Of a stretch of 64,000 nucleotides of DNA, positions 23,762 to 59,711 are shown piece by piece. Made by a program: the position numbers and the translations under genes. The stretch's first letter is position 1. The number at the start of each line of letters is the position of its first letter. The DNA is from Prorocentrum cordatum. Lineage: Eukaryota > Sar > Dinophyceae > Prorocentrales > Prorocentraceae. The notes under the pieces were generated by a model, which was not told the DNA's origin, ran no database searches, and was given only the letters and a program-made list of their open reading frames with translations. The stretch covers positions 1 through 64,000 of the forward strand of contig CAUYUJ010018719.1 in assembly GCA_963575745.1 (NCBI GenBank), written 5' to 3'.

Positions 23762-24687
23762 TTCAGAACTTTTGGTCGGTTGACAATTCTGTGCTCGAAA
23801 TTCAAGAATTCGTTGTGCTCTAGTGTTTTTTCCCGTGATATTCGATCTCATTCCCGCTCGTCATCTTGATCTCAGCTCGATCGGGTATCTTTTACTGTCA
23901 AACAAAAAGACACTGGCGGGATCGGCCGTTTCCAGTCATCTTGATACGCGTTGTCGGTATTTTGTACTTAACTCGAGCTGTGGAACAGCTACAGAGCTGG
24001 TAAGCACAGCTAATCGATGTAGAATGATTTGGTGCGTTCGCCTGTTGAATCCAGAGCTCTGAACTCGGCTTGCTAACCGAGCTAGGTCCGCAAACCTATT
24101 CGTATTATTCAAGTCGTCTTGATTCGCACTGTCGGTATTCTGAACTTAACTCGAGATATAGGACAGCTACAGAGCTGCTAAGCACGCCTTATCGACTCAG
24201 AATCATCAGGCGCGTTCGGCTGTTCCAACCAGCGGTCTGAACTCGGTCCCCTAGCCGAGCCAGGTCCGCAAACCTATTCGTATTATTCGAATCATCTTGA
24301 TAGGCGCTCTCGGTTTCCTGTACTTAACTCGAGCTATAGGACAGCTACAGGGCTCATAGTTACAGAACCCGATTCAGAATCATCCGTCGCGTTTGTCTGT
24401 CGAATCCAGAGCTCTGAACTCGGTCTGCTGCGCGATCCAGAATCACGAAACTGTTCGTATTCTTCCAGTTATCTTGAGAGCTACTGTCGGCGTCTGCACT
24501 TAACTCGGGCTGTAGGGAGGCTGAGGGCGGGTAATCACAGGAATCGATTGTCCGTCTGTCGCATTCAGAGGTCTGAACTCGGTGTGATACTCGAGTTGGG
24601 CTGAAAAACTATTCGTTCTCTGCAATTTTTTTCGACATTATATGTTGTCAGGAAGCTCTACGAGTCTCCCGGCGGTAACCAAGGTTG
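23762..24687 (+). repeat. Family B element 15, left part, split by LINE-A
   Basis: Leader from ttcagaacttttggtcgg, four units from about 23935, then the tail at 24649-24687, which stops after CGGTAACCAAGGTTG. The rest of the hairpin resumes at 30637, beyond the LINE. Confidence 0.74.
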
Positions 24688-24804
24688 TGCGTTCTCGCTT
24701 GTGCGTTCTTGAGCATTGTTGTGGATTGATCTTCAGTACTCGTCACGGCGGAGAGAGAGAAGAAGAGGTCCCCTTCGGAGTACGATTTCAGGGTACTTGA
24801 CAGA

Positions 24805-26229
24805 GTGTACAAGAGGAGAAAGACGGCGCAGGCTCAGGAGGCCCCCATTGTTGGTGACGAGTTCTCAGATTTGGGAGTGGACGAAGGTCATTCTTTGGAT
24901 ATCGATCAGATCGACGATTTCGTTCTGGCACTTAATCACCAGATACGTCGCAATCACCTTGACATTCCAGAGATGACGACTGAAGAACAGCAGGCAGCAC
25001 TTCTTCGGCAGCAGCAGCAGGCTGAAGGGGAAGCAGGTGAACTGGCGGCTGCTGCAGCGGTAGTATCAGGGCAACAACTTAAGGGGGATGGGGATGCTGA
25101 TATGGCTCTTCCTGGAAAACGTGATGTTGTGACTGGAGCGGATGAGCGGACAAAACGTGCTCGTCCGCCAGAGTCCCCCCATGTTGCTGCAAAAGGTCAT
25201 GGTAGAGGCGCAGCAGCTGGTGAGGAGCAGGTGGTTACGATTTCAATTCTCAGAGGTGAGTTCTCTTCGATGATAGATGAGTTGAAGGCGACTTTCACAG
25301 ATATTAAGAATGAGATGGTCAAAGATGTCCAGCGTGAAATGGAACCGCTGCGAAAAGATATCTCTGATCTCCAGAAGGGTCAGGAGGATCAGAAGAAAAT
25401 AAATGCACAGCTCTTTGCCGCCATCCAAGGACGCCCCCCTCAGAATCTTGGTGCTGGATCTGGAGGGCCACCGTCCGAGGCTGGATCGTCAGGTTCGACG
25501 AGATTCACAGCCTCACGTATCGAATGGAACAAAACCAGGGCCGACTTCAAACCAGGATGGATCAGTTTGCAAGGCTGGACTTCAGGAGATCCGAGGGACC
25601 TGACGGCGAGGACGAACAATATCATGTCGGAGGAAAGGGGTACTAGGATTGTCACGTGGATGGTTGAGAATATCTTTTGTAATTTTGAAGATCGCTCGAA
25701 GCAGGTGCCAGTGAAAGTTCTTGATGATATGGCGACTCACAGAGAGAATACACGCAAACCATATGGCTTGTTCAGGATCAAGTTCATTCTTGAGAGCAGT
25801 ATTACGAAAGATCAGATTTGGGATCTTCAGCGCGCTATTCATGAAGCAGTTACGTCCAGGACTGGAGAGCTTTGGGCTGAAGATAAGCTGGGCCCAGCGA
25901 GCCAGAGTTACATCAGTGTGAAGGTGGAGACGGCCCCATGGAAGGTTCAACAAATACAGGCGGGATCGAAGCTCATCGCCACGTATCACAAGCGTAAGGG
26001 CAGTACTCCTCAAGAGCTGAATGCTACTGTGAGGGTGGAATATGGACCACCCAGTATTTCCTGGGCTTGGGGTTTTCCGAATAAGAATGATATGGGCAAC
26101 AGGGTATGCCTGGGCACGTGGTCATCCGAGGAGGGATGGAAGTTGAAGACCTCGGAGGTTGAGAAGATCAGCAAGTCGATCCACGTTGCGAACTGGCAGA
26201 CCGAGCTCAACCAACAAAATCGTTTCTGA
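24805..26229 (+). CDS. LINE-A ORF1 protein
   Basis: An open frame of 474 residues if counted from GTG 24805. The frame is open back to TGA at 24727, but the first in-frame ATG is at 24973 (residue 57), so the start is uncertain. Residues about 150-210 alternate charged and hydrophobic positions and look like a coiled coil (ELKATFTDIKNEMVKDVQRE), expected for LINE ORF1 trimerisation. The C-terminal half shares short motifs with LINE-B ORF1 in the same order: PGWISLQGW (PEWIDFRGW in LINE-B), FRIKF, and VETAPWK (KTQAPPWK in LINE-B). I see no CCHC knuckle. The likely role is RNA binding and RNP formation, inferred from position. It ends in UGA followed by C. Confidence 0.78.
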   Translation: MYKRRKTAQAQEAPIVGDEFSDLGVDEGHSLDIDQIDDFVLALNHQIRRNHLDIPEMTTEEQQAALLRQQQQAEGEAGELAAAAAVVSGQQLKGDGDADMALPGKRDVVTGADERTKRARPPESPHVAAKGHGRGAAAGEEQVVTISILRGEFSSMIDELKATFTDIKNEMVKDVQREMEPLRKDISDLQKGQEDQKKINAQLFAAIQGRPPQNLGAGSGGPPSEAGSSGSTRFTASRIEWNKTRADFKPGWISLQGWTSGDPRDLTARTNNIMSEERGTRIVTWMVENIFCNFEDRSKQVPVKVLDDMATHRENTRKPYGLFRIKFILESSITKDQIWDLQRAIHEAVTSRTGELWAEDKLGPASQSYISVKVETAPWKVQQIQAGSKLIATYHKRKGSTPQELNATVRVEYGPPSISWAWGFPNKNDMGNRVCLGTWSSEEGWKLKTSEVEKISKSIHVANWQTELNQQNRF

Positions 26230-26271
26230 CGACGGCCACAGCGGATTCGGACCGCATCGTGGAATATCAGA
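26227..26271 (+). other. ORF1-ORF2 junction: in-frame UGA with upstream endonuclease motif
   Basis: UGA (26227-26229) is followed by 14 sense codons in the same frame, then ATG 26272. Their translation ends TASWNIR, matching the SWNxR first motif of APE-type endonucleases (the metal-coordinating Asn). The base after UGA is C, a context known to favour readthrough. Either readthrough makes an ORF1-ORF2 fusion, or ORF2 starts at a non-AUG codon. The same junction occurs in copy 2 at 61134-61178. Confidence 0.75.
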
Positions 26272-29200
26272 ATGAAGGGTGATGGAGCCGAAACATTGAA
26301 TGCCTTGGGTTTCTTAAAACATGAGGGGATGGAACTTATCGGCCTCCAGGAGTGCCAGAATGTACCGTTGTACCTCGTGCACGAATTAGGGTATGAAGCC
26401 AAGTGGTCCACGCAACATGTTCTTGGGGATGATGCTCGCGATCGCAGATGTATTGAGGGGAATGCAGGGGTTTTGATTGCAAATGGGTTGCAGGATAGCA
26501 TTCTTGAGACTAGAGAGCGTAGAAGATTCGTTGTTGTTGCCCTGCGGGGTCCCAGAATCGGTGCTCTAATAGTTGCCTCATTGTATTTGCCGCATGTAGA
26601 GTTCTATGGGCGCTCAGCTGCCCAAATGGATCGTATGTTTACTTTCTATCAGGACATCTTGCTAGAGCTTGTTGAGATGATCATTGAGCTTAGGAAAAAG
26701 TTTGGGATAAAGGAGGTTGTAATCATGATGGATGCGAATGTTGAGGTCCACCAGGATGTCACCATTGATAGGGTGCAGGTCACGGGGAAAGGTGTGCAGG
26801 CTTCCACAAGTAAGAGCAGCCAGGGAGGGTTTGAGAAAATGCGTGAGAAGTACAGAGACTACATGAGTAGGAGCTTGTGCATGGCCATGGCACGTCTGCA
26901 GTTGACCCTGATAAACACGCACGGTGAGAGATGTGCGACCTTCCGAAGTAGCATGAATACATATAAGGTCCTGGACTACATAGCTGTACCTAAGGATTGG
27001 TGTCACACTGGACTAGACCCCAGATGCGATTTTGTCAAGCCGCTCGGAGATAAGAGAGTTGACCGTTGGAGTGATCATAAGATGGTTAGTTGTTTTCTCC
27101 CTGGACCCCCTGCTCGCGTTGGTAAAGGACCTCGTGTTCTTGGCAGCCTGGCGAGATGGAGACCCATTCCAGGGAAAGATGTGGAGGTGCGTCGTGTTAT
27201 TGCTGAGCGTGTCCTGGGGATTTCGAACAGTGAGTGTGAGAGGAGAAGAGCGACAAAAAGGAGGAGGGATAGAGAGGAGGAGAAGGTTGAGGACCAGGAG
27301 GGGTTGATGGAGCAGCAGGTGTGCAAGACTAGGTGGAGGACGATCTCTTTAGATATCTTCGAGGAGCGTTTGAAGGCTGGTGCGGTTGAGGACAAAAAGC
27401 TCTTCGAGCTGAAGACCTCGATTGGCAACGATCTGAAACTCTCGGAGGAGGAGAAGGAGGTTCGGGACTACCACTATGGGGTGCACAAGAGGTGGAAGAA
27501 GGGGGAGGTGGATGAGAAGGAGTTCAAAGATTCTCGGCGTAGGTGGAATCGGGTCCGACGTGAACTTCGTAGGCGTATCTTGGAATATAAGTATCGGGAT
27601 GAGGGTAAACCACACACAGTCGTCACACACATGAAAATTGACGGTACCATGACTGAGAATCGGGAGTCCTGGAAAAAGGAAATCGCCAAAATTGCTCGGA
27701 TGAAATACTCCAGTCAAACACTCCATCAACAAAATGTAGAATGCTTGGCTCGACTTAAGCAGCGAGCAATCCAGCACACTCGACTCAATGCAGTTTCTTC
27801 TCCCATCACGATGGGTATTCTACATAAAGCGAGAGCCCGCCTCAAGGTGGGCAAAGCAGTTGGCTATGATGGTATATCAGCAGCTCTTTTACGTAGTCTG
27901 TCTTGGGAGGCACTCAGAGTGGTCTTGGATTGTTTCCAACAATTGTATGCTAGACGATTGCAGTCACCGCCGTCTTGGAGAAAATTATTAGCTACGCTCA
28001 TTTTGAAGGATACGAAGAAGCCAGAGTTCACCAGTACGCGTACTCTGGCTCTCAATAGCGTGCTTTCGAAATGGTATATGGCTTGTTTGTGTATCTTACT
28101 CAATCGTCATGTTGAACAGAATACGCCTCGGACTGGAATCAATTTGTATGGTTTTCATGAGGGACGGAAATGCAGCGAGATAACAGCAGGATTGAAGAAC
28201 TTGATTAGACATGCCAGACTCTGGGGTAAGCATGAGAATGCATGTGTGGGAGTTCTAGACGTTGAGTGCGCCTTCGACAACATCACGATACCGATGGCAG
28301 ATAGAGCGATGTATGATATCAACGTTGACCCAGAGCTGGCGTATGCGATTTTGGAGCAAAATGCAGATGTAACAGCGACGTTTCGATTTGGTCCAGTGGA
28401 ATCAGAAAGCTTACCGTGGAGCTCATGTATTAAAACGGGGTCCCTTGAAGGCCCTGATATCTGGAATATTGTTACGATTGCATGTCTGGGCAAGGTTCTC
28501 TTGGACTGGGAACGAAGAGGTATAGGCCTGAAGCTATCACACGAGGCTGCTTCTACCACTATCTCGCACTTCATTTGGGCGGATAACTTTGTTTTGATTA
28601 CTGACTCTAGATCAGCACTGAGGGAGATGATCTGGCAGCTCACTGTACCACTGCATGCATGGGGACTCAGATGGAAGCCTACCTCGCTCGAGTATATGGA
28701 CGTTGGCGCGCTGAAGAATGTGTTCGACCCGCTCGTGGTTACCATGACACCACCAGGACTGGAGAGATTGGGAAGTTCCAGCTCAGGTGTTAGAAACCAT
28801 ATGTGTGGAAGCTCAAGCTCGGGTGTTAGGAACCATATGTGTGGAAGTTCAAATGGGGCTCTGGATGTGTCGCCATCTGAAGCTGTCAACCAGACCACTG
28901 TGGAACTTAAGCAGGTTGACGAGATCATCGTCTTGGGCACAAAGCTGAATAGAACACTGGATGATTATCATGATATTCGATACAGACTGCAAAAAGGTAT
29001 CTCAGCTTTTTGGCGGGATCGACGATATTATCAGAGTATGGTCATTCCTTGGCGACGTAAATTCAAAAGATATGATGCAAGAGTGAGAGTTCAGATTCTT
29101 TATGGAGTTGAGGGTTCATCTTCTGATATTGGCGTATTGAGACTTCTACACAAGGAGGAGGGTAAGATGCTCTCTCGCATGTGCTGGCGCCAGAAGCGCA

Positions 29201-30576
29201 ATGGAGAGAACTTCGCGACCTTCATGACACGTATGTTTCGACGTGGGCGCTCGATGCTACACAAGGAAGGGAAACCGTCCTTGGTCCAGCTGTACCTGCA
29301 CAAGCAGTTCATGTGGGCCAAGGATATTGCCACGGAGTGCTTTGAAAATATGTCAGGCTCGCTGCAGGACTTGAGTATCCCTGCAACGGGAGGGTCTCAG
29401 TTGATTGGGAAGAGCGTGGAGGAGGAGATGATGGAGGTGGAGGTGGAGGAGCCTAACAGGAGGAAGAGGAAGAGTGCTCTCATCAGGGAGGCAAAACGAG
29501 CTTGTGAAGGGTTGTCTCAGAACACGTCCAGGTTGCAGGCCGGGGTCCAGGAGAAGCAGGTTCGTTTCCCAGGGAGAAAGCTTCGTTTTCGTGAAGGGGA
29601 GCATGTTGACCGAGGTGCTCAAAGTAGGCTTCTCATGCTGCATGCAGGTTTTGAATGGACTGATAGGCGGGATGACTTTATTGCGACCCTGGACACACAG
29701 AGTGCACGGGAGGTGACGAGAGCCAGGGGACAGTCAACCAATCTTCTGGGTATGTGTCCGTGGGCCAGAGTGTTCGAAGAGGTGGCGGGGAAGTACTGGA
29801 TCGACGGTATTGCTTGGGATGAGGCTAGCTGGATATTCTTTGTGAGGACTGTCTTGAAGGACGCTCCTGAGATGTTGAACCTGTGTGTATTGAAAGACCC
29901 CATGCCCTGGAAGGAGTCGGAGGAGGAGGAGATGACTAAGAAGCAGGAGGACCCAGATAAGTTGGCCAAACGTCTCATTGCTATATTCCAGGATCATACT
30001 GAATTTGAGTTCGTGCCAGGGAAGATTTCTGTGGAACTGATGGGGGATTCGCAATGTGTTATCAGGTGGTTGGAGGGCTTGAGTAGTATCACTAATAGAA
30101 AGTATGCTAACCGTGTGATGTGGGCGCAGGATACTACAAACGATCTAGCCGACAGATGCGGACTACGAGCTGCCAATTTAGGACGGAATGTGTGGAAGTG
30201 GGTGTATAGGGAGGGCAATACTCGTGCCGATGAATTAACGTGGGCCGCGCGGAGAGGTGAATGTTTCGAACATTATGACACTTGTTTTCTTCAGGATGTG
30301 AAAGATTGTAAGGTTGTGATCTCGGGGATCAAAGGAGGCTTTGATGGTGGGAGATCGTTTCTTGGCGTAGGCTGTGGCTGGTATCTGGATTGTCATGTGT
30401 GTAGTGCTCTCCCCTCCTCTTCTTACTATAATCAGACTGGCTGGCGCCAGAATGTAGGTCTCAAAAGCTTCCTTCTCCCAGCACAATGCACTATCACAGA
30501 GGCTGAGCTTGAAGCTGCCCGAGAGCTCCTTTTAGGAGTGGTGCATATCCTGAGTTTGTCAGGATATCCCCTGTAG
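26272..30576 (+). CDS. LINE-A ORF2: EEP endonuclease, reverse transcriptase, permuted RNase H
   Basis: 1434 residues from ATG 26272. The endonuclease domain spans about residues 1-285: LQECQNV, MMDANVEV, YKVLDYI and WSDHKMV are the EEP/APE boxes. The first box (ASWNIR) is encoded upstream, at 26254-26271, in the same frame as the preceding UGA and ORF1, so this Met is probably not the domain start. In the RT, motif A is VLDVECAFDN (D663), motif B is TGSLEGPDIWN, and motif C is IWADN (residues 768-772) in place of the usual YADD. An LYGVE-type thumb motif follows. The last 180 residues hold RNase H signatures in unusual order: D1259 (GDSQ), D1320 (NTRADEL), D1358 (FDGG), E1412 (TEAELEA). A 12-residue duplication lies at 834-857. 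Confidence 0.88.
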   Translation: MKGDGAETLNALGFLKHEGMELIGLQECQNVPLYLVHELGYEAKWSTQHVLGDDARDRRCIEGNAGVLIANGLQDSILETRERRRFVVVALRGPRIGALIVASLYLPHVEFYGRSAAQMDRMFTFYQDILLELVEMIIELRKKFGIKEVVIMMDANVEVHQDVTIDRVQVTGKGVQASTSKSSQGGFEKMREKYRDYMSRSLCMAMARLQLTLINTHGERCATFRSSMNTYKVLDYIAVPKDWCHTGLDPRCDFVKPLGDKRVDRWSDHKMVSCFLPGPPARVGKGPRVLGSLARWRPIPGKDVEVRRVIAERVLGISNSECERRRATKRRRDREEEKVEDQEGLMEQQVCKTRWRTISLDIFEERLKAGAVEDKKLFELKTSIGNDLKLSEEEKEVRDYHYGVHKRWKKGEVDEKEFKDSRRRWNRVRRELRRRILEYKYRDEGKPHTVVTHMKIDGTMTENRESWKKEIAKIARMKYSSQTLHQQNVECLARLKQRAIQHTRLNAVSSPITMGILHKARARLKVGKAVGYDGISAALLRSLSWEALRVVLDCFQQLYARRLQSPPSWRKLLATLILKDTKKPEFTSTRTLALNSVLSKWYMACLCILLNRHVEQNTPRTGINLYGFHEGRKCSEITAGLKNLIRHARLWGKHENACVGVLDVECAFDNITIPMADRAMYDINVDPELAYAILEQNADVTATFRFGPVESESLPWSSCIKTGSLEGPDIWNIVTIACLGKVLLDWERRGIGLKLSHEAASTTISHFIWADNFVLITDSRSALREMIWQLTVPLHAWGLRWKPTSLEYMDVGALKNVFDPLVVTMTPPGLERLGSSSSGVRNHMCGSSSSGVRNHMCGSSNGALDVSPSEAVNQTTVELKQVDEIIVLGTKLNRTLDDYHDIRYRLQKGISAFWRDRRYYQSMVIPWRRKFKRYDARVRVQILYGVEGSSSDIGVLRLLHKEEGKMLSRMCWRQKRNGENFATFMTRMFRRGRSMLHKEGKPSLVQLYLHKQFMWAKDIATECFENMSGSLQDLSIPATGGSQLIGKSVEEEMMEVEVEEPNRRKRKSALIREAKRACEGLSQNTSRLQAGVQEKQVRFPGRKLRFREGEHVDRGAQSRLLMLHAGFEWTDRRDDFIATLDTQSAREVTRARGQSTNLLGMCPWARVFEEVAGKYWIDGIAWDEASWIFFVRTVLKDAPEMLNLCVLKDPMPWKESEEEEMTKKQEDPDKLAKRLIAIFQDHTEFEFVPGKISVELMGDSQCVIRWLEGLSSITNRKYANRVMWAQDTTNDLADRCGLRAANLGRNVWKWVYREGNTRADELTWAARRGECFEHYDTCFLQDVKDCKVVISGIKGGFDGGRSFLGVGCGWYLDCHVCSALPSSSYYNQTGWRQNVGLKSFLLPAQCTITEAELEAARELLLGVVHILSLSGYPL
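28771..28842 (+). repeat. 36-bp tandem duplication inside LINE-A ORF2
   Basis: Two 36-bp units (28771-28806 and 28807-28842) with four differences encode GSSSSGVRNHMC twice, a Ser/Gly linker between the RT palm and thumb. Frame is kept. Copy 2 has the same duplication, so it predates their split. Confidence 0.8.
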
Positions 30577-30636
30577 GACTGGGTCTGGGGCTCCTTAGGA
30601 GCTTAACCCTGCCAGGACCCGCCTAGAACGCCTAGA
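30545..30636 (+). other. LINE-A 3' end structures
   Basis: A perfect 9-bp stem, 30545-30553 with 30559-30567, overlaps the last codons and stop of ORF2. Downstream, gctcc/ggagc forms a second small stem within ctccttaggag, and GGGTCTGG can pair with CCAGGACCC around it with one bulge. The terminus is two direct CGCCTAGAA copies. In LINEs without poly(A), such 3' stems and short terminal repeats are typically what the reverse transcriptase recognises; that role is inferred here. Confidence 0.6.
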
Positions 30637-30669
30637 ACCAAGGTTGACGGCTTACCGCCGGCGCCCAGT
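30637..30669 (+). repeat. Family B element 15, right part of the terminal hairpin
   Basis: ACCAAGGTTGACGG then CTTACCGCCGGCGCCCAGT: the second half of the palindrome split at 24687, including the second copy of the target duplication. Confidence 0.78.
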
Positions 30670-39389: not shown

Positions 39390-39424
<35 letters not shown>

Positions 39425-39504: not shown

Positions 39505-39779
39505 GATTTCTTTTGGGTGGTTTTGCAAATATTTGAAAGATATTTGACAATTCATTTTGAGAAAGCAGTTTTTACGCACCTGTAAAAGGTTATAAGATCC
39601 TCAGCGTCTTAATATGAGCTCTCTGGGCGCACTTTTACTACCGAAACACTTGGGGGAACCAACTTCGTTTCGACATTTTAAAAGATCAATGTTGAATTTT
39701 TCGAGAATTGCCTCCAAAGGCTCTCTCTTTCGACTCTCAGCTCTCTCACACGTGGGAAGAGCTCTACGAGGTTCCCGGC
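39505..39779 (+). repeat. Family A element 16 (type I), left part, split by LINE-C
   Basis: Starts within the body (gatttcttttgggtggttttg), type I, reaching GAGCTCTACGAGGTTCCCGGC at 39779, where LINE-C begins. Host sequence resumes at 41731 with cctaggttgacgg, so about five bases (ggtga) of the hairpin were lost. Confidence 0.72.
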
Positions 39780-39800
39780 TCAAGAAAATCTCGGCTCAAG
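39776..39800 (+). other. Spliced-leader relic, tandem
   Basis: CGGCTCAAG, then AAAAT, then CTCGGCTCAAG: the last 13 nt (39788-39800, ATCTCGGCTCAAG) equal, as I remember it, the 3' end of the Perkinsus spliced leader with both Y positions as C. The first block shares CCCGGC with the host hairpin. Tandem truncated leaders are a known mark of reverse-transcribed, re-trans-spliced mRNAs in dinoflagellates. The match is short, so chance is possible for one block but less so for two. Confidence 0.6.
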
Positions 39801-39865
39801 GCGCGTGACATTTGATCCCCTCTGCCTGGGTAACCTCCAGTGGGATCGAGTGCGCGTCAGGGAGT

Positions 39866-40035
39866 CACACGTTTGTCGCCTAGAGTGATATTGCACTGCC
39901 TTTCTTCTGACACGTTTGATCGCCTTGAGTGGTCTTCAATTGATTTGTTTCACACGTTTGTCGCCTAGAGTGATATTGCACTGCCATTCATTTGACACGT
40001 TTGATCGCCTTGAGTGGTCTTCAATTGATTTGTTT
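39866..40035 (+). repeat. 85-bp tandem duplication in the LINE-C 5' leader
   Basis: Units 39866-39950 and 39951-40035, each starting cacacgtttgtcgcctag and ending caattgatttgttt, differ at only a few bases. Tandem 5' repeats are common in LINE promoter regions (known for other LINEs); a promoter role here is inferred. Confidence 0.75.
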
Positions 40036-40073
40036 TGCTGGGGCTTCCGAGGCAGTCTCTGCAATCTTTCGCT

Positions 40074-41108
40074 ATGCCACACGTACGGAGTGCAAGTGCT
40101 CGCATCATGCGTCGGGCGCTGGCTGTTCAAAACGGATACTGTGTGCATTTACCTATTCGTTTGCCTCTGGATGGTTTGGTGCCACCTACGTGTCTCCCAC
40201 CACCAGGGCTGGAGCGGGCGACTGCCGATTTGGTTCTAGATTATCTCTTCTTGCGCGATCCACCTGTTGTTAAACGCAGTTTGGAGGAGGAGGCTGACAT
40301 TACGACTGTTTCGGAGAATCTTTCTTGCCGTATGCAGGCTTCTGAGTCGCTGGTTGATGTAGGTATTGGAGTGCAGGCTTCTGAATCGCTGGTTGATGTT
40401 GGAGTGCAGACGGTTGATACACGCTTGGCGGAGGAGGAGGTGGAGGCTACCGTTGCGACTATCTCGGAGACTCTTTCTTGTCGTTCCCTTGTTGACTCAG
40501 GAGTGCAGACGGATGATGCTTGCCTGAGTGTGCTACCCAAGGAGGAGGCGGCCGTTACGACACATTCTGAGATTTCTTGTGCGGATGTTGTGGACTTTCA
40601 TTGTGAAGTCGGCTGTCAGACAGAGATTGTCGCTGGGATGGAGAGAGGAGCTTCAGGGGTTCTTCTTGGGAAAGTGACTGTTGAGGCTGAGGAGGAGCTG
40701 GAGGCGCCCTCGAGAGCGGAGTTTTCTCCGAATGTGCAGGCTGATCCTGATAGCCACGCCTTGTCAGGAGCGTCCCAGGGGTGTCTGAATCGTCCCGTCA
40801 CGCTCAATGGGATATCGAATCCGGGTTCTGATGCGTTTGTCCGTGTCCGGATGGACGTCTCCAAGACTGTGCGTCAGTCGGAGGGGGAGTTCCAAGCTGT
40901 TCCTCCGGATTCCAAGCGTTCTGATGGAAAAGGGGATGTACGAGGGCACCGCAAAGGCAGAGGCAAAGGCCAACGATATCATAGCAGTGCCAAGCCTGCT
41001 AAGAGCTCTAAAGGCGCCAACATCGTGTTTGACGAAGTGTATAGGTTCGGTAGGACGTTGACGGACTGTGAACGAAGGTGTAAATCTCAGGTTCGGCCTC
41101 TGTGGTAG
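40074..41108 (+). CDS. LINE-C open reading frame, function unknown
   Basis: 344 residues from the first ATG at 40074 (the frame is open back to 40035 without another ATG). Visible features are a short basic N-terminus, PPPGLER near residue 50, a central acidic region with repeated SLVDVG/GVQT motifs (SESLVDVGIGVQ, SESLVDVGVQT, SLVDSGVQT), and a basic C-terminus with KGRGKGQ and a final RRCKSQVRPLW. It has no cysteine-knuckle or catalytic pattern. Position after the leader suggests an ORF1-like nucleic-acid-binding protein, but it has no clear similarity to the ORF1 of LINE-A or LINE-B. Codon use is ordinary and the frame is open, so it is either recent or still made. Confidence 0.55.
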   Translation: MPHVRSASARIMRRALAVQNGYCVHLPIRLPLDGLVPPTCLPPPGLERATADLVLDYLFLRDPPVVKRSLEEEADITTVSENLSCRMQASESLVDVGIGVQASESLVDVGVQTVDTRLAEEEVEATVATISETLSCRSLVDSGVQTDDACLSVLPKEEAAVTTHSEISCADVVDFHCEVGCQTEIVAGMERGASGVLLGKVTVEAEEELEAPSRAEFSPNVQADPDSHALSGASQGCLNRPVTLNGISNPGSDAFVRVRMDVSKTVRQSEGEFQAVPPDSKRSDGKGDVRGHRKGRGKGQRYHSSAKPAKSSKGANIVFDEVYRFGRTLTDCERRCKSQVRPLW

Positions 41109-41304
41109 TTATTCGTTTTTCTTCGTGTGCTTCCTTTCATTCCGAACTTATTGCATGTGTGTGCATGTTCAGTTCTTGGCCAGGTCTCCTGGCTCTCACG
41201 TCGTAACATTATCCTTGCCTTATCAAAGCCAGCTTTAATGGGGGTGTTTGTAGCCGCGGAAGTGCCTGTGGTGGGTGTGGATACTGATTGGTCTGCGGTA
41301 CTAA

Positions 41305-41469
41305 TATATCTTCTCGCAGACCGACATCATTTTCACGGATGTGTATCTTGAGGCTTGGTGTCTGCCACCAAGCGCCACTGTTACAGTTACGGAACTATCT
41401 GCGGCGGAGCGCGTATGCGATGTGCTCACACAGGTAGTGCAGACCTTCTTTGATCATTCGCAGGGATGA
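41305..41469 (+). pseudogene. LINE-C ORF2 remnant: C-terminal RNase H helix
   Basis: After an in-frame TAA (41302-41304) a 54-codon frame ends with PPSATVTVTELSAAERV and some 20 further residues, then TGA. It parallels PGATITECELSAAEAL at the end of LINE-B ORF2, including the Glu equivalent to E1315. Everything upstream (endonuclease, RT, most of RNase H) is missing, so this is a leftover 3' end. Confidence 0.55.
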
Positions 41470-44482: not shown

Positions 44483-45523
44483 GACTCGTAGAGCTTCCCT
44501 AAGCTAGTTGCTGGAAGCTTAAGAGTAATTCCGGCGTGCTCCAGAGCTAGTTGGCTCGACAAATCTCGACGGAACTTTTGCTGACTTTTGGTCAGTTGAA
44601 AATTTTGTTCCTAAGATTTAACAATTCGTTTGAGCTGTAGTATTTTTTCCCGTGATATTCGATCTTATTCCCGCTCGCCATCTTGGTCTCATCTCGATAG
44701 GGTGAATATTACTATCGAACAGCACTGTGGCGGGATCGGCTGTTTCGGGTCATCTTGACACGCGCTGACGGTTTTCTGAACATAACTCGAGCTATAGGAC
44801 AGCTACAGAGCTGGTAAGCACACCTAATCGATGTAGAATGATTAGGCGCGTTCGCCTGTTGAATCGAGAGGTATGAACTCGGTCTGTTAGCCAGGTCCGC
44901 AAACCTATTCGTTTTATTCGAGTCATCTTAAGAGGAACTCTCGGTTTTCTGTACTTAATTCGAGCTGTAGGACAGCTGGAGAGCTGATACTTACAGAAAC
45001 TGATTCAGAATCATCAGTTGCGTTTGTCTGTCGAATCCAGATCTCTGAACTCGGTCTGCTGCCCGATCTAGAATCGCGAAACTATTCGTATTGGTCGAGT
45101 TATCTTGAGAAGTGCTCTTGGTTTTCTTCACTCAACTCACGCTGAGGGGGGCTACAGTGCTGGTGGTCACAGGAATCGATTTGAAGACGTCGGGCGCGTC
45201 CGCCTGTCGAATCCAGAGCTCGGAACTCGGTCTGCTGCCCGAATCAGGTCTGCGAAACTATTGTATTGTTCGAGTCATTCTGAGAGGTGCTGTCGGTTTT
45301 CTGCACTTAACTCGGGCTGTAGGGGGGCTTCAGGGCTGGTAATGACAGGAGTCGATTCGCAGACATCAGACGCGTCCGTCTGTCGCATTCAGAGGTCAAA
45401 AATATTCACTATGAGTCGGAATATTGGTAGGTGCTGTCGGTTTTCTCAACTTTAGTCGAGCTAGGAAGCTCTACGAGTCTCCCGGCGGTAACTAAGGTTG
45501 ACGGTTTACCGCCGGCGCCCAGT
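44483..45523 (+). repeat. Family B element 24, with M2 (four units)
   Basis: M2 44483-44551 starts GACTCGTAGAGCTTCC and has the short loop ctaagctagttgct. Leader TGGCTCGACAAATCTCGACG, four units, tail 45462-45523. Units 3-4 closely resemble those of elements 23 and 25. Confidence 0.73.
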
Positions 45524-46604: not shown

Positions 46605-46838
46605 TTTGATTGGTTTTGCGCAAAATTGAAGGATGTTTGACAATTCATTTTGAGAAAGCAGATTTTTCGCACCTGTAGTGGGTTATGCCGCGTCCGCCAG
46701 TAAAATTTTCAGGCCCATAGGTGCAGTATTACTATCGAAACACTTGGAGGAACCGACGTTGGATAAAAACAGAAAAATGTGATTTTTCGAGTTTTTCGTT
46801 TCTCGCTCCAGAAGCTTTCTTCATGTGTTCCGACGATT
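46605..46838 (+). repeat. Family A element 19 (type III), left part, split by LINE-B
   Basis: Starts in the body (tttgattggttttgcgc), type III (gtgggttatgccgcgtccg), and runs to tgttccgacgatt at 46838. In the complete sister at 52184-52582 the next bases are gctttacaaggg and then the tail, so about 50 bp of host were lost at the LINE-B 5' junction. Confidence 0.68.
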
Positions 46839-46859
46839 ACTGACCGCAAGGTGACAGGC

Positions 46860-47789
46860 ATGGTTAACGATATGGCTACCATGCAACGACGGCAGGATAG
46901 TGCTGAACGACGAATGGCTGAAGGCCAGGCTCAGATGGATAAACGAATGACAGATCTTGAGAAGCAGGTCTTAGAGCTCAAGTCGCATACTGCTGCAGGT
47001 TCTGGGGCATCCACTGGTGCTACTTCTGCTGGCTTTGGGGGTGAGGCGACTTGGCCAAACGAGAGCAGGCGTCCATTCCGAGCCTTCAGTCCAGAGTGGA
47101 TCGATTTTCGTGGATGGGTGACTGACTGGAGGAATCCGATTCGACGGTCAGAGCAAATGATTTCAGATCGGGACGTGGGCATTCTCATTCACAACTTGAA
47201 GATGAGCCTCCCAGAGGATGACCGTGCGAAGATTGACGAGCTTGGTACGCTTCGTATGAATGGGAATCGTCCCAACTACGCAAACTTCCGCATCAAGTTT
47301 ACCACTGGTACTGAGTCAGACGTACTCTGGAGGTGCAAAAAGTTTTGGGAAGAAACTCTGATCCCGCCTGAGGATCGAACTGAGGAGCAAAGGTCTCTTG
47401 CCCGTCCGACGCCACATGATCTTTTCAAAGACATGGACAACAGACCGTGTGCGGCTGGAGGCTCCATTCGGATCAAGACACAGGCACCGCCATGGAAAGA
47501 GGACCACATCAATGCTGTTGGCAGATTCCATGGTGTGTGGCGCGATACGGTCATTGCGAGGAATCCTGAAACGACAATGAAGATCAAGGGAGTGCCTGGG
47601 AGTGGAAAGGGGGTCAGTGTGATGTGGACCATTCCCCCATGTCTCCGTACCAAAAGAAGCATGGAGCTGGCCAAGTGGAAACAGGATACGGGCACTTGGA
47701 CCGTTGATCAGACGGTCTGGAACGAAGTTGTCATGACGTACGGCATCGCCACGACCCACAAAGAAATGGAGGATGCACTCGGACAATGA
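46860..47789 (+). CDS. LINE-B ORF1 protein, probably 5' truncated
   Basis: 309 residues from the first ATG inside the element (46860). The frame continues upstream into host repeat sequence, so the true N-terminus is lost. Residues 1-45 (MQRRQDSAERRMAEGQAQMD and on) form a strongly charged heptad-like coiled coil. Next is a Gly/Ala/Ser linker, then a conserved C-terminal region with FSPEWIDFRGW, YANFRIKF, SIRIKTQAPPWKE. The same order of motifs is found in LINE-A ORF1. The role is presumed RNA binding and RNP assembly. It ends in UGA followed by GGG, eight codons before ORF2. Confidence 0.75.
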   Translation: MVNDMATMQRRQDSAERRMAEGQAQMDKRMTDLEKQVLELKSHTAAGSGASTGATSAGFGGEATWPNESRRPFRAFSPEWIDFRGWVTDWRNPIRRSEQMISDRDVGILIHNLKMSLPEDDRAKIDELGTLRMNGNRPNYANFRIKFTTGTESDVLWRCKKFWEETLIPPEDRTEEQRSLARPTPHDLFKDMDNRPCAAGGSIRIKTQAPPWKEDHINAVGRFHGVWRDTVIARNPETTMKIKGVPGSGKGVSVMWTIPPCLRTKRSMELAKWKQDTGTWTVDQTVWNEVVMTYGIATTHKEMEDALGQ

Positions 47790-47813
47790 GGGTGCTGCGA
47801 GAGATCCAAAAGC

Positions 47814-50800
47814 ATGGCTCTCGCTACTCTCGCAGCAGGCACACTCAATGTTGCGAGAGCTGGGCGGCTCGAGTCTCGGGCTTACGCTATTCTACGAGCG
47901 CTACAGGGGGTAGGCTTAAATGTTGTGGCTTTGCAAGAATGTCAAAACGTGGACTTCAATGACACCTTAATTCAGCGTCTGGGGTGGGATGCTGTTTCAA
48001 AAAGTACTTGCATGCGGGCAGCGGTGCTTCTTAAACGTCGACACCTGCCCCACGTGATAGCCTCTTATCAAGCAGATCGGGTTGCGATGATTGTTCATCG
48101 ATCGGGAGTTTGTTTCACTAGTGCTTATTTTGCTGATACGTCTCATCCAGACGCTCCAGAGATATGCAGACGGATACTGCATGATGTACGCCGCCTGCAT
48201 CGACAGGCTCAGGCCAACCATGGCCACCACTTTCGCTTGTTGCTTGCCTGTGATGCCAATGTGGAGCTCACGCCAGAGTTGGAGGTGGATGGGAGGAGGG
48301 TGACGGGACCAGGACTCAGAAGATCGAGGGAGAGGGGACTTGGTCGGAACGGTGCCATTGATTTGGAGGACAGGAGGGCCAAGGAGGTGTGCATGAGGGA
48401 CCAGATTGAGGAGTTCTTGGAGGAGGAGGAGCTGGCTGCGATCAACACTTTTGAAGCACGGGTGCCGACCTACTGGCACTTCGGTGAGAGTGAGCCCACA
48501 AAGGTCTTAGATTACATCTTGGCGCCCAGGCAGTGGACAGTAGAAGATATCTCGTACAGTTGGTTGCAGGACGGGCGTGTGGCACGTTTGAGCGATCATG
48601 CAGTGATCAAAACCCTGTTGGCCCCAAGGGAACCCCAGGAGATGTACCGACACAAGGTTGTTCGGCCACGCGTCACGGCACGCCGGGCATTCGAGTCCCA
48701 CAGAGAGGAGTTCTGTTTCAGAGCGTTGGTGGACATTGGTATTGAGGCCACACGCCCTGACGAGATCGCGAAGTCGTTGCATCAGCATGCGTTGCCTCTG
48801 CTCAATCCGCCTTCCTCTGCGCATCGTGCACATGCTAAGTCTAAAAAGCTAGCAGATCTTCAGCATCAGTATCGTGGAGCCCGTGGGAATCCTGATGAGA
48901 GAAAGCGCCTGAGGGAACTTATGAGGCCCCTGGTCAATGCAGATAGGCGTAGTGAGATCGAGTATACCTTCGCGAACCCTCGCAAAAGCAAGAAAGTGAA
49001 TGTCAAGTCTCTGAAGATCGACGGGGAGGTGACGGAGGATCGTAAGAGGTGGGTGGAGGAGGGGATGAAGCAGCACAGCTTGAACACGATGACGAGCGAA
49101 GAGGAGAGGATGAGGAACAGCGAGCTGGTATCTGACTTACGGCGACGTGCACGAGCAGCTAGGGCACACAGCAGCAGCAGTACGATGCACGACATGCACA
49201 TGCAGCTCACGATGGGGGTGGTGAACGAAGCACGTGCACGATTGAGATCTGGCAAGAGCTGCGGCCCAGATGGGGTCAGCGTGGAGCTCTTGAAGGCTTT
49301 GGCGTGGCGATCTGTTCGCCAGATTTTCCATGTGTTTCGAGATATCTTTGATGGTGATCGTCGGTCACCTGACTGCTGGAGAGAGGTACTCATCACGCTG
49401 ATGCCCAAGCTGGTGAATCTAGATTCGCTCACACAAACACGCAATATAGTTGTACAGAACACGTTAGGAAAATGGTACCTCACCTGCGTTACTATCCTTA
49501 TCGAGAGGCATGCTGAACAGTACATGGGGCGATTGGGCTTGTATGGTTTCGCACAGGATCGGAGGACGTGGGAAGTAGCGGGACCCCTTAAGGCCATCTC
49601 ACAGCATGCGAGCGTCTGGGGGAAAGATAGGAAAGCGTTCTTCTGTTCATGTGATATAGCACGAGCCTTCGACCATGTTAAGCTCACTACCTTGGCACGC
49701 GCGATGCACATGCTTAACATACCTGTACAGCTACAATATGCTCTGATCGAGCCCTTAACTGACACGACGGGCACGCTCACGTTCGAGGGCCTGGAGTTAG
49801 GTGGGGTACGATGGGATCGATCTCTCAGAACGGGGGGTACCGAGTCTCCCCTGTGCTTTAATTTGGTTGTGTTGGCCATGTGGGCGGAGGTCATACAGAG
49901 GTGGGATAACGAACGTATAGGTGTGGAGATCCCGTACAGCAACATGCACGACATGACGCGCGCACATGTTTACAATCATGCGATTTGGGCAGATAACATA
50001 TATCTCGTGGCCAGTACATCGGCTCAGATGCAGCTGATGATCGACGCACTTACTCACGCTTTACGTACATGGGGACTAGAGTGGAAGTCTGATTCACTTG
50101 AATCGATGGTGGTGGGCGACCGCGATACCACTACTTTCTTCGCTGATATCCAGGGGGTGCAGGTCCCATTCAAGTCAGTCTCTCAGCTGAATGTGTTGGG
50201 AACGGTCGTCTCGCAGCAGTATGGGGGCACGCATGAGGACATACAATTTCGGATTGACTGTGCACGACGCGCGTTTTATGGGCAAGCTAAGTATTATCGT
50301 TGTCGTGCTCTCCCTCTTCGTAAGCGGTATCGACGGTATCAGAGCCTGGTACAGAGTGTATTAGCATACGGACTGGATACATGTACGCTGGACCCTGAAG
50401 GTGTTCGATTGCTTCATACCTTTGAGGGCAGATGCCTGCTGGCCATGCATTGTCGACGGAAGCCTGCGGGACAGAGATGGGAGGTCTGGAAGCCACATAT
50501 GCTTGACACAGCGAGGGCTTCTTTCTGCTCGCTGGGATTTCCTAGCATCGTCCAGATCGTGGCGTGGAAGAGTTGGAGCGTCGCGCATTCGGTCAGCACG
50601 GCTTATGGCAATTTTGATTTCACAAATCCTGGGCCTCCCCGGTGGAGAGGCCCAGGTTCAGGAGTAAGTTGTGAGGATGGGGTCTCGAGCGGTTCCCAGC
50701 ACAATGATGGCGCTGACGGCCGACGTGTTGCACGCAAGGTTGAGCCACATCCTGATACCACGAGACGTGCATTTGTTGATTCTCGCACGGCATTGCTTTG

Positions 50801-51836
50801 TACACACAAGACCTGGGAAGCGCACCGCATGGCTCTCACTGAGTGTCTCCGCTGTCATGGAGATCGTAGGCGTGCCTCTGAAGGCAAACGGCTGCGTGCT
50901 GGAGGGGATAGTGTTGGGCAGCGGTCTTGGCAGTACCCGTACATACAGATTCATGGGGATGAGTGGTGGGAGACCTTCCGACCAGGATATGCCACATTTC
51001 TGCAGACATGGGAAGCACTTTTACGCACGTATGGTAGGCCTAAGATATTCGAGTACTTCTGCACGAATTGGAAACAGGTACCAGGAGGAGTTGTTGGGAG
51101 AGAATGTAAGGAGGGAACAGGAAGGAACGAGGAGGCGACGGAGGAGGAGAACATGAAACAAGCAAGACGGTTGGCGATTATCAATGAACGGGAAGCTGTA
51201 TTTGATATCATGTCGAACGGAGTTGGAATTGAGATCAAGGGAGACTCTTTGTTGGTCCAGAGCTGGCTTACGGGACGTTGGCGTTGTCATAATCGTGCAT
51301 ATCGTGAGCGTGTACACAGGTGTGTCAACGACATGTACGCACTTAGCGTATCACACCGAGTCCGGGCATCGAACGTTGGGCGAGACATATTTGTACATGA
51401 ATTTCGTGAAGCAAACACCCGAGCAGACGAACTTACTCATTTGGCCAGAGATGGCCACACATTTCATCATAACTATTGTCATCGATATCCCTTCGAACGA
51501 GACTATTTGAAGGTAGTCGCCTGTCGTGGGGGGTACGACGGGGGAGTGTGCAGCAAGGGCAGTGCATGCGGTTACTGGATGCAGGTTGGCTATCTCAACA
51601 TGTCTTCGCGGGCGTCTCGGCATGGAGTGTATTCTACACGATACTCCCCCTACCCGACCTCTTCCTCTCTACATTATCATGCTGACACACCGTTGATTTG
51701 GAGAGACGCTGCTGCTGCGGCTTGGTTGGAGCCAGGCGCCACGATCACCGAATGTGAGTTGTCCGCTGCCGAAGCATTGACACGTGCCATACGCATACAG
51801 CTTCAGCAATTTGATGACAGTGATTTTGCTTCTTGA
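47814..51836 (+). CDS. LINE-B ORF2: EEP endonuclease, reverse transcriptase, permuted RNase H
   Basis: 1340 residues. The endonuclease is complete after this Met: TLNVAR (N12), LQECQNV (E42), ACDANVE (D147, N149), VLDYI (232-236), LSDHAV (SDH 260-262). RT motif A is CDIARAFDHV (D614), motif B is TGGTESPLCFN, and motif C is IWADN (724-728). The thumb has LAYGLDTCTL. The last 200 residues carry RNase H signatures: D1144 (KGDSLLVQSW), D1205 (NTRADELTH), D1242 (YDGGV with GSACGYW), E1315 (TECELSAAEAL). The D1144-D1205 spacing of 61 equals that of LINE-A. I see no intact CCHC knuckle. No stop or frameshift, so the protein could be functional although the element is 5' truncated. Confidence 0.88.
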   Translation: MALATLAAGTLNVARAGRLESRAYAILRALQGVGLNVVALQECQNVDFNDTLIQRLGWDAVSKSTCMRAAVLLKRRHLPHVIASYQADRVAMIVHRSGVCFTSAYFADTSHPDAPEICRRILHDVRRLHRQAQANHGHHFRLLLACDANVELTPELEVDGRRVTGPGLRRSRERGLGRNGAIDLEDRRAKEVCMRDQIEEFLEEEELAAINTFEARVPTYWHFGESEPTKVLDYILAPRQWTVEDISYSWLQDGRVARLSDHAVIKTLLAPREPQEMYRHKVVRPRVTARRAFESHREEFCFRALVDIGIEATRPDEIAKSLHQHALPLLNPPSSAHRAHAKSKKLADLQHQYRGARGNPDERKRLRELMRPLVNADRRSEIEYTFANPRKSKKVNVKSLKIDGEVTEDRKRWVEEGMKQHSLNTMTSEEERMRNSELVSDLRRRARAARAHSSSSTMHDMHMQLTMGVVNEARARLRSGKSCGPDGVSVELLKALAWRSVRQIFHVFRDIFDGDRRSPDCWREVLITLMPKLVNLDSLTQTRNIVVQNTLGKWYLTCVTILIERHAEQYMGRLGLYGFAQDRRTWEVAGPLKAISQHASVWGKDRKAFFCSCDIARAFDHVKLTTLARAMHMLNIPVQLQYALIEPLTDTTGTLTFEGLELGGVRWDRSLRTGGTESPLCFNLVVLAMWAEVIQRWDNERIGVEIPYSNMHDMTRAHVYNHAIWADNIYLVASTSAQMQLMIDALTHALRTWGLEWKSDSLESMVVGDRDTTTFFADIQGVQVPFKSVSQLNVLGTVVSQQYGGTHEDIQFRIDCARRAFYGQAKYYRCRALPLRKRYRRYQSLVQSVLAYGLDTCTLDPEGVRLLHTFEGRCLLAMHCRRKPAGQRWEVWKPHMLDTARASFCSLGFPSIVQIVAWKSWSVAHSVSTAYGNFDFTNPGPPRWRGPGSGVSCEDGVSSGSQHNDGADGRRVARKVEPHPDTTRRAFVDSRTALLCTHKTWEAHRMALTECLRCHGDRRRASEGKRLRAGGDSVGQRSWQYPYIQIHGDEWWETFRPGYATFLQTWEALLRTYGRPKIFEYFCTNWKQVPGGVVGRECKEGTGRNEEATEEENMKQARRLAIINEREAVFDIMSNGVGIEIKGDSLLVQSWLTGRWRCHNRAYRERVHRCVNDMYALSVSHRVRASNVGRDIFVHEFREANTRADELTHLARDGHTFHHNYCHRYPFERDYLKVVACRGGYDGGVCSKGSACGYWMQVGYLNMSSRASRHGVYSTRYSPYPTSSSLHYHADTPLIWRDAAAAAWLEPGATITECELSAAEALTRAIRIQLQQFDDSDFAS

Positions 51837-51968
51837 TGATGTGTTATCCCTATGCCCTCCTGGGCTCGGGAATCATCTTCAAGTTTAGCTAAGTTATATG
51901 ACACCTCAGCCCGCCTCCGTGGGTAGGTGCTCGTTTCACTGCTGCTCAGATGCCTAGCTGCGTAGCTG

Positions 51969-52021
51969 ACGCGGGCTGCGCTGAAGACCAGCGCCTCGCC
52001 AGCCCGCGTAAACACAAAAAA
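51969..52021 (+). other. LINE-B 3' stem-loop and A tail
   Basis: ACGCGGGCTG (51969-51978) pairs perfectly with CAGCCCGCGT (52000-52009). The stem extends through CGCTG/CAGCG (51979-51983 with 51989-51993) around the loop aagac, with a six-base bulge. Then follows aaacacaaaaaa to the insertion point. The likely role is a 3' recognition structure for target-primed reverse transcription. Confidence 0.68.
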
Positions 52022-52087
52022 CCAGGTTGACGGTTTACCGCCGGTCCCCATTTGCGCTATGCTCTTCGGGTTTTGGATGCTACCAAT
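52022..52087 (+). repeat. Family A element 19, right hairpin part, and family C scrap
   Basis: ccaggttgacggtttaccgc then CGGTCCCCA is the rest of the split hairpin (to about 52051). tttgcgctatgctcttcggg ... ggatgctaccaat resembles the inverted family C end at 18806 and 23149, about 36 bp. Confidence 0.6.
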
Positions 52088-52143: not shown

Positions 52144-52582
52144 ACCTCGTAGAGCTCTTCGTCGTCGATGAGCTAGAGGAAGTCCTCGTAGAGCTCTTCG
52201 GCATCGATGAGCTAGAGGAATTCCGGCGCCGGGTGGAGCTAGTTGGTCGACCCGGCCAGAAAAAAAGACAAAGTGGTAACTTTTGGGTGGGTTTGCGAAA
52301 AATTGAAGGATGTTTGACAATTCATTTTGAGAAAGCATATTTTTCGCACCTGTAGTGGGTTATGCCGCGCTTGCCAGTAAAATTTTCAGGCATAGGTGCA
52401 GTATTACTATCGAAACACTTGGAGAAACCGACGTTAGATAAAAACAGAAAAACGTGATTTTCGAGTTTTTCGTTTCTCGCTCCAGAAGCTTTTTTCATGT
52501 GTTCCGACGATTGCTTTACAAGGGAAGAGCTCTACGAGGTCCTCGGCGGTAACTAGGTTGACGGTTTACCGCTGGTTCCAGT
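52144..52582 (+). repeat. Truncated M1 plus family A element 21 (type III), nested in element 20
   Basis: A first M1 (52144-52183) is cut after agaggaagt by a second, complete M1 (52184-52243). The type III body has four extra A in ccagaaaaaaagac. The tail reads GAGCTCTACGAGGTCCTC, and the end is GGTTCCAGT at 52582. Confidence 0.7.
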
Positions 52583-58220: not shown

Positions 58221-58556
58221 TGGTCGACCCGGCCAGAAAGGACAAAGTGATAACTTTTGGGTGGTTTTGCAAAGATTTGAAAAATATTTGACAATTCATT
58301 TTGAAAAAGCAGATTTTTCGCACCTGTAAACGACCATGAGGGCCTCTGCGTCTTGATATGAGCTCTCTAGGCGCAGTTTTACGATCAAAACACTTGGAGG
58401 AACCAACTTCATGTCGACATGAAAAAAATTATGTTGAATTTTTCGGGAACTGCCTCGAGAAGCTCTCTCTTTCGACTCTGAGCTCTCTCACGTGTGAAAG
58501 GAGCTCTACGAGGTTCCCGGCGGTGACCAGGTTGACGGTTCACCGCCGGCGCCAGT
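58221..58556 (+). repeat. Family A element 24 (type I, no M1)
   Basis: TGGTCGACCCGGCCAG start, type I body with aaaaaaattatgttgaattt, consensus tail and hairpin, ends GCGCCAGT. Confidence 0.73.
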
Positions 58557-59466
58557 TGAAAATTATGTTCTCAAAATTTGACCATTCGTTAGAGCTCTAG
58601 TATTTTTTCCCGTGATATTCGATCTTATTCCCGCTCGCCATCTTGATCTCAGCTCGATCGGGTGAGTATTACTATCGAAAAGCACTGTGGCGGGATCGGC
58701 CGTTTCGAGTCATCTTGATATGCGCTGACGGTTTTCTGAACATAACTCGAGCTTTAGAAGAGCCACAGAGCTGGTCAGCACAGCTAATCGATGTAGAATG
58801 ATTAGGCGCGTTCGCTTGTTGAACCCAGAGGTCTGAACTCGGTCTGTTAGCCGAGCTAGGTCCGCAAACCTATTCGTATTATTCGAGTCATCTTGACAGG
58901 AACTCTCGGTTTTCTGTACTTAACTCGAGCTGTAGGAGAGCTACAGAGCTGATATTTACAGAAACCGATTCAGAATCATCAGTTGCGTTTGTCTGTCGAA
59001 TCCAGAGCTCTGAACTCGGTCTGCTGCCCGATCTAGAATCGCGAGACTATTCGCATTGGTCGAGTCATCTTGAGAATTGCTCTCGGTTTTCTTCACTCAA
59101 CTCGCGCTGAGGGGGGCTACAGTGCTGGTGGTCACAGGAATCGATTTGAAGACATCAGGCGCGTCCGCCTGTCGAATCCAGAGCTCGGAACTCGGTCTGC
59201 TGCCCGAATTAGGTCTGCGAAACTATTGTATTGTTCGAGTCATCCTGAGAGGTGCTGTCGGTTTTCTGCATTTAATTCGGGCTGTAGGGGGGCTGCAGGG
59301 CTGGTAATGACAGGAGTCGATTCGCAGACATCAGAAGCGTTCGCCTGTCGCATTCAGAGATCAAAAAATATTCACTATGAGTCGGAATGTTGGTAGGTGC
59401 TGTCGGTGTTCTCAACTTAAGTCGAGCTAGGAAGCTCTACGAGTCTCCCGGCGGTAACCAAGGTTG
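58557..59466 (+). repeat. Family B element 30, left part, split by LINE-A copy 2
   Basis: Leader from tgaaaattatgttctc, four units near 58706, 58882, 59060 and 59238, then the tail from 59429 that stops after CGGTAACCAAGGTTG at 59466, the same base as at 24687. The remainder of the hairpin would lie beyond the window. Confidence 0.74.
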
Positions 59467-59711
59467 GGGAAGCGGAGTTTACCTCCCGCTCTCCCCCGGC
59501 CTTGGCCCGTCGGGGGGCTCCTCGAGCTGCATCGTGCAGTCAGGGGTTTCAGTTTTGTTCTCCATACCTGAACTGTATACCACACATCCCAATTTTGTCT
59601 CTCGCTTGTGCGTTCTTGAGCATTGTTGTGGATTGATCTTCAGTACTCGTCACGGCGGAGAGAGAGAAGAAGAGGTCCCCTTCGGAGTACGATTTCAGGG
59701 TACTTGACAGA

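Follow-up and report, generated by a model that had tools for sequence, protein, structure and literature searches.

The first 64,000 nucleotides of contig C17870 (196,955 bases), here called the window, belong to a Prorocentrum cordatum genome assembly of 4.13 Gb in 21,875 contigs. Two repeat families make up much of the window. Family A is ~1.05 kb long and contains inner tandem units of 178 bp; family B, which includes a subtype B2, is ~0.4 kb long. Each has a 3' hairpin, CCGGCGGTAA-CCAAGGTTGACGGT-TTACCGCCGG in family A and CCGGCGGTGA-CCAGGTTGACGGT-TCACCGCCGG in family B, beyond which come several bases and then CCAGT. A scan of the window detected 48 intact hairpins, three left-only halves and three right-only halves on the forward strand, and three intact hairpins on the reverse strand. 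By direct reading and by script, we found that four copies of long interspersed nuclear elements (LINEs), from three families that we call LINE-A, LINE-B and LINE-C, interrupt A or B hairpins, all in the same orientation and all with the 3' junction at the stem-loop boundary. All four 3' ends directly precede CC(A/T)AGG or CCAGG. Three of the junctions fall in the window, at 30637|30638 (CCAAGGTTGACGG), 41730|41731 (CCTAGGTTGACGG) and 52021|52022 (CCAGGTTGACGG); the fourth lies beyond it, at contig positions 65545|65546, and occupies the identical base of an A-type hairpin. Since the stem and the tails both end in A, the position of the nick is uncertain by up to 2 bases.

On the left side, only the flanks of the two LINE-A copies stop in the loop. 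They end at one base (24687 and 59466, ...GGTAACCAAGGTTG), and both copies are flanked by a 9-bp duplication, CCAAGGTTG. The left flank of LINE-B stops in the stem (39779, ...CCCGGC), with a few stem bases gone, and that of LINE-C stops in the B2 body, ~37 nt upstream of the junction base, with the left half-hairpin lost. Left and right flanks agree in family at LINE-A copy 1 (A/A), LINE-B (B/B) and LINE-C (B2/B2). We made a simple estimate of chance by assuming uniform placement over 46.4 kb of non-LINE sequence. The 55 hairpins entered comprised 48 intact and four occupied ones on the forward strand and three on the reverse strand. Under this assumption, an insertion hits the correct strand no more than 2 bp from a given loop base with p ~0.003, and the joint chance is ~9e-6 for two further 3' junctions and ~3e-8 for three. 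A first-pass annotation of the window had described the four copies of three families inside A/B hairpins in one orientation, the three visible junctions before CC(A/T), the single left-flank base of the LINE-A copies and a placement very unlikely to be due to chance. All of this was borne out, with the junctions now at exact bounds, but the common left-flank base does not extend to LINE-B or LINE-C.

We searched the assembly for the LINE-A tail motif (GCCTAGAACGCCTAGAA) followed by 0-8 free bases and then the loop letters GGTTGACGG, a pattern that by design catches only tails near GGTTGACGG. It matched 78 tails, and a reversed-pattern control matched none. All 78 lie 3 or 4 nt from GGTTGACGG according to the loop variant (CCAAGG, CAAAGG, CCTGG, CCAGG, CGAAGG, GAAAGG or ATTGG), as expected if the junction base is constant and the loop comes in two lengths. 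Each of 20 sampled sites, window copy 2 included, runs into the right half of a hairpin and a CCAGT-type end.

Other LINE families were sought in 20 stretches (L001-L020, 200 kb) taken around places among the first 100 listed of 7014 genome matches to the target motif CCWAGGTTGACGG; its reversed control has 182 matches. The stretches hold 157 intact hairpins and 17 right-only halves. On manual reading, nine of these halves follow a LINE-like tail, three reflect small deletions, four are diverged intact hairpins and one is a stretch end; all nine tails meet the loop at one identical base. Five smaller stretches and three continuations enlarged the sample to 234,706 bases, in which tails recognised by motif lie at the hairpin loop for types C (1/1), F (2/2), E (3/3), H (3/3) and G (2/2), and for type D in 0/2 cases. 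The loose G motif also matched 15 A-rich places, which we read as repeat-internal and not as LINE ends. Counting A and B, the LINE tail types that share the hairpin junction number seven (A, B, C, E, F, G and H). Further left junctions have a 6-bp duplication, CCTGGT (L020), or small deletions (L006, L014 and L005). We also tallied copies with ORF (open reading frame) homology and a visible 3' end, leaving out two unclear matches: one is ORF1-like and runs off L019, the other is a piece of the ORF2 C-terminus in L025 that lies ~0.6 kb away from a hairpin. Nine such copies end at the loop: LINE-A copies 1 and 2, LINE-B, LINE-C, a LINE-C copy in L015, the F copy of L015/L026, the G copy of L005/L027, a B-like copy in L006 and one in L011. 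Two end elsewhere (D1 in L001/L002 and D2 in L008).

LINE-A copies 1 and 2 are 99.88% identical over 5946 bp, differing by few substitutions and a one-base length change in ORF2 (window position 62913); the insertions therefore look young. The LINE-C copy in L015 is 97% identical to that of the window in ORF2. LINE-B measures 1.95 kb, keeps ORF1 and has a decayed ORF2 C-terminus, and so reads as a short non-autonomous LINE. A relative of LINE-B, with an ORF1 67% identical, sits in a hairpin at L006:6080-8211. In two copies, the longest LINE 5' ends (window 59467-59500 and L003:7097-7120) share a small hairpin motif, AGCGGAGTTTACCTCCCGCT/GAGCAGAGTTTACCTCCTGCTC, for which no Rfam family reached its gathering score. 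Features of the window are listed in Table 1.

Table 1. Coordinates of interrupted hairpins, LINE copies and example carrier elements in the window
Feature	Position	Strand	Details
Left half of family A hairpin	24652..24687	+	Ends ...GGTAACCAAGGTTG; 9-bp duplication CCAAGGTTG
LINE-A copy 1	24688..30637	+	ORF1 frame 24730-26229; ORF2 frame 26230-30576; tail (CGCCTAGAA)2
Right half of family A hairpin after LINE-A copy 1	30638..30669	+	CCAAGGTTGACGGCTTACCGCCGGCGCCCAGT
Left part of family B hairpin, cut in stem (...CCCGGC)	39757..39779	+	
LINE-B	39780..41730	+	ORF1 frame 40029-41108; decayed ORF2 C-terminal remnant; A-tail
Right half of family B hairpin	41731..41761	+	CCTAGGTTGACGGTTCACCGCCGGCGCCAGT
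B2 body upstream of LINE-C	46605..46841	+	~37 nt lost relative to copy ending at 52582
LINE-C, start approximate	46842..52021	+	ORF1 frame 46767-47789 (enters from B2); ORF2 frame 47790-51836; A-tail
Right half of B2 hairpin	52022..52052	+	CCAGGTTGACGGTTTACCGCCGGTCCCCATT
Left half of family A hairpin before LINE-A copy 2	59431..59466	+	
LINE-A copy 2	59467..64000	+	Runs on to contig base 65545, where it meets CCAAGGTTGACGGTTTACCGCCGG
Complete family A element, example	44484..45523	+	5' ACTCGTAGAGCTTC...; 178-bp inner repeats; 3' GAAGCTCTACGAGT + hairpin + CCCAGT; at T|T
Complete family B element, example	3520..3917	+	5' ACCTCGTAGAGCTC...; 3' GAGCTCTACGAGGT + hairpin + CCAGT
B2 element at T|T	52144..52582	+	Uninterrupted site found at 1414-1473

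Families A and B have asymmetric terminal inverted repeats that match within each family (ACTCGTAGAGCTTC/GAAGCTCTACGAGT in A and ACCTCGTAGAGCTC/GAGCTCTACGAGGT in B), the 5' end being the reverse complement of the letters directly preceding the element's own 3' hairpin. A 5' hairpin involving the 5' repeat is predicted for both (A, -12.2 kcal/mol, z -6.2; B, -7.9 kcal/mol, z -2.2), and the 3' hairpin lies between the 3' repeat and the nearby 3' end of the element. The 5' terminus reads (T)A... or (T)GA..., where the T could be a target base. Candidate empty sites were found in the window for 33 of 51 element ends and for the other 18 there were none, and many of the candidates are trivial or mispaired; manual reading left seven clean single-element empty sites, of which six lie at T|T and the seventh at T|G, none with a target duplication. 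In PMC3627910, Helitron2 elements are described with asymmetric terminal inverted repeats, a 5' hairpin, a 3' hairpin after the 3' repeat, insertion at TT, a 5'-terminal T and a 3' repeat 20-30 bp from the 3' end. According to PMC4067079, Helentron/HINE (DINE-1) elements insert at TT and may carry central tandem repeats, and HINEs have the 3' repeat 38-60 bp from the end. The 3' repeat of A and B ends ~45 nt from the 3' end, inside the HINE range and beyond that of Helitron2. A and B thus share with these elements the asymmetric inverted repeats, both hairpins, TT insertion and, as in some of them, inner tandem repeats, and differ in serving as LINE hosts. No RepHel coding copy was seen, and no search aimed at RepHel was made; because of this we class A and B as probable non-autonomous, Helitron2/Helentron-like elements. 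Hairpin elements joined tail to tail form long palindromes (window 21553-21684 and 36527-36642; e.g. CCCAGT-CG-ACTGGG at 36578-36591). The sequence at 23-24 kb, 7.1-8.7 kb and 36.7-37.2 kb looks unlike A, B or LINE and may represent a further repeat family; sequence near 7147 recurs inverted near 23113.

The reverse transcriptase profile RVT_1 (PF00078) scored above its cut-off in ORF2 of both LINE-A and LINE-C. The endonuclease profile PF03372 came just under its cut-off of 24.5 bits in LINE-C ORF2 (23.2 bits, E 6.6e-5), and apurinic/apyrimidinic endonuclease (APE)-like motifs (QECQ, DANVE, LDY and SDH) are present in ORF2 of both families. We compared reverse transcriptase rows from the window (26230-30576 and 47790-51836), from L001, L008, L015, L026 and L027, and P0002; the tree covered the seven own-genome rows and three database proteins. 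All seven own-genome rows, and P0002, have WADN and not [FY]ADD as the active-site motif, and [RK]TG(G/S)xE(S/G/A)P as motif B. At the C-terminus, RNase H motifs occur in a permuted order (GDS, NxxADxL, DGG, ExL) in six of six families (window 51138-51833 and 29968-30573; L027:3908-4585, L026:1408-2022, L008:3380-4003 and L002:285-926). A structure model has a pLDDT of 80, and the motif order suggests a circularly permuted RNase H.

We consider it very likely, from the sequence data, that these elements represent a LINE lineage specialised to insert in the 3'-terminal hairpin loop of abundant non-autonomous Helitron2/Helentron-like elements. We infer that insertion would begin with a nick of the bottom strand by the ORF2 endonuclease at the loop edge (5'-CCGTCAACCTTGG|TTACC-3'), and that the A-rich or short-repeat tail of the RNA would then be reverse-transcribed from the nicked 3' end, i.e. 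by target-primed reverse transcription. A loose second-strand cleavage 6-9 nt downstream would yield duplications such as CCAAGGTTG, and cleavage upstream would yield deletions of ~3-40 nt. Target-primed reverse transcription, as established for R2 and L1, is expected to leave a constant 3' junction and 5' junctions that vary, the pattern seen here. The endonuclease most likely reads the loop sequence GGTTGACGG, possibly with a structural component. The Helitron-like elements supply thousands of copies of the loop sequence, which are presumably dispensable. Two elements of the original proposal gained support: a shared target specificity, from the 78/78 LINE-A tails near GGTTGACGG that lie at one base and at least six further tail types, and a landing site carried by another mobile element, from the Helitron2/Helentron-like anatomy of A and B.

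Several observations weigh against this interpretation. The first-pass annotation had called for a genome-wide tabulation of 3' junctions, and the part that we ran held for LINE-A (78/78 tails near GGTTGACGG, 20/20 sampled ones in hairpins). The related family D, with the tail GCGCACGCGCCCTGTGTAGCC...AACACC, is a different case: neither of the two copies seen (L002:780-1010 and L008:3850-4080) ends at a hairpin. Since family D ends elsewhere, hairpin specificity is not universal in the clade, and family D may have lost, or never had, target specificity. The LINE-A pattern selects for tails close to the loop letters, and L001-L020 are a hairpin-biased sample. A 4.2-kb insertion in a hairpin, running from L003:7064/7097 to L028 (contig C6, ~44.1-48.3 kb), lacks an A-tail on the right, and no homology to LINEs was detected in it. 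The endonuclease region of LINE-A ORF2 matched no endonuclease profile. Lastly, two of the sampled LINE-A sites, L029 and L037, may not be independent, as their downstream flanks align in register.

The alternative that survives best holds that shape, and not letters, is the target, with the endonuclease cutting an extruded or single-stranded hairpin in a cruciform, a replication fork or a rolling-circle intermediate. The position of the 3' junction at the stem-loop boundary fits this idea, as does conservation of the hairpin itself. We aligned 37 of the 51 intact window hairpins, giving 29 distinct rows in which 97.9% of stem cells are paired, and the 3' hairpin DNA has fold z-scores of -2.1 (A) and -2.5 (B). 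Five of the ten stem pairs are invariant, three vary on one side, one varies only through unpaired cells and one varies on both sides (A:T to G:C, in nine cells), and none of 500 shuffles reached nine two-sided cells. However, the covariation is thin: it involves a single two-sided pair, a number matched by 439 of 500 shuffles, and shifting the partner by -2 gave a higher covariation score than no shift (0.110 versus 0.099). Moreover, every alignment column of the loop letters GGTTGACGG shows little or no variation, so that sequence alone suffices. One H-type tail (L003:8650) joins CCTGGTTGACGG with the right stem lost, although that loss may be later. We therefore regard a target defined by shape as the less probable account, with perhaps some chance of being correct. 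Rather doubtful, too, is a broader scenario in which the Helitron2-like terminal hairpin is the ancestral niche of a LINE clade with a WADN reverse transcriptase (in which Asn takes the place of the second catalytic Asp) and a permuted RNase H, and with an endonuclease that perhaps acts on the hairpin when it is extruded or single-stranded in rolling-circle replication. If this were true, action of the endonuclease on the replicating hairpin would couple retrotransposition to Helitron activity.

Instead, one LINE-in-hairpin event might have been copied, either through segmental duplication, which the first-pass annotation had named as contradicting its proposal, or through transposition of the Helitron. 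LINE-A copies 1 and 2 are indeed 99.9% identical, and the repeat nests hold duplicated composites; but these copies have different A subtypes upstream and 5' ends that differ by ~130 bp. We compared, with gaps, the downstream flanks of the 20 sampled sites and of LINE-A copy 1 (21 flanks, 210 pairs). Two pairs are in register: the flanks of L029 and L037 match at 93% over 117 nt, and those of L031 and L048, whose loop variants differ, at 80% over 49 nt. The remaining similarities reflect one repeat family at differing offsets. Hence, descent from a shared event could apply to one or two of the 21 sites at the very most, and nearly all appear to be independent insertions. Because the downstream flanks differ save for one or two pairs, segmental duplication is ruled out as an account of the pattern, and together with the loop variants this makes copying of one event highly improbable for most LINE-A copies.

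It is equally hard to believe that the half-hairpin is the LINEs' own shared 3' tail and that A and B are derivatives of it, resembling short interspersed nuclear elements (SINEs). All LINEs at hairpin junctions do precede identical letters, and SINEs sharing 3' tails with LINEs are known, as PMC3747384 describes. However, the A-rich tails precede the half-hairpin and do not follow it; the subtype of the half-hairpin agrees with the left flank in the window; both LINE-A left flanks carry the other hairpin half and the duplication; and the sequence past CCAGT differs at nearly every site, while A and B have the ends of DNA transposons. That there is no specificity, and that any insertion would fall into A or B merely because these fill much of the window, can practically be dismissed, given the fixed base within the repeat, both in the window (the chance estimates above) and in all 78 tails near the motif.

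Specialisation on the hairpin loop has parallels among known site-specific LINEs. Tx1L of Xenopus, a member of the Tx1 clade, is reportedly inserted in Tx1D. As in that pair, an apparently APE-type LINE has a specific target inside another transposon; here, in contrast, the LINEs occupy the terminal hairpin loop of a Helitron2/Helentron-like rolling-circle element, and this site is used by several diverged families. With R1/R2, Utopia and other LINEs of multicopy genes the elements share one-base target precision, the use of one target by several families and multicopy landing sites, but the target here is a mobile element and not an RNA gene, and the endonuclease here looks APE-like, unlike the restriction-like enzyme of R2 and Utopia. 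According to PMC4640811, transposons are among the targets of site-specific LINEs, and the Tx1 clade encodes an APE. PMC3414825 describes internally deleted non-autonomous partners (R2 and R2/R1 hybrids), which LINE-B resembles. By analogy, the lineage would behave like other site-specific LINEs that use multicopy refuges, transposons included; it is set apart from them by a Helitron2-like terminal hairpin as target and by the seven tail types that share it.

The WADN motif and the permuted order of the RNase H motifs are unusual enzyme features. The LINE proteins, which look APE-type, have a site defined by nature and could help to test whether sequence or hairpin governs target choice. The hairpin would act as a terminator, and insertion into it should inactivate the host element or cause read-through. 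One class of mobile element lives here within the conserved end structure of another, with single-base precision and in several diverged LINE families, which suggests a route by which LINEs may multiply with little harm in a repeat-rich giant genome.

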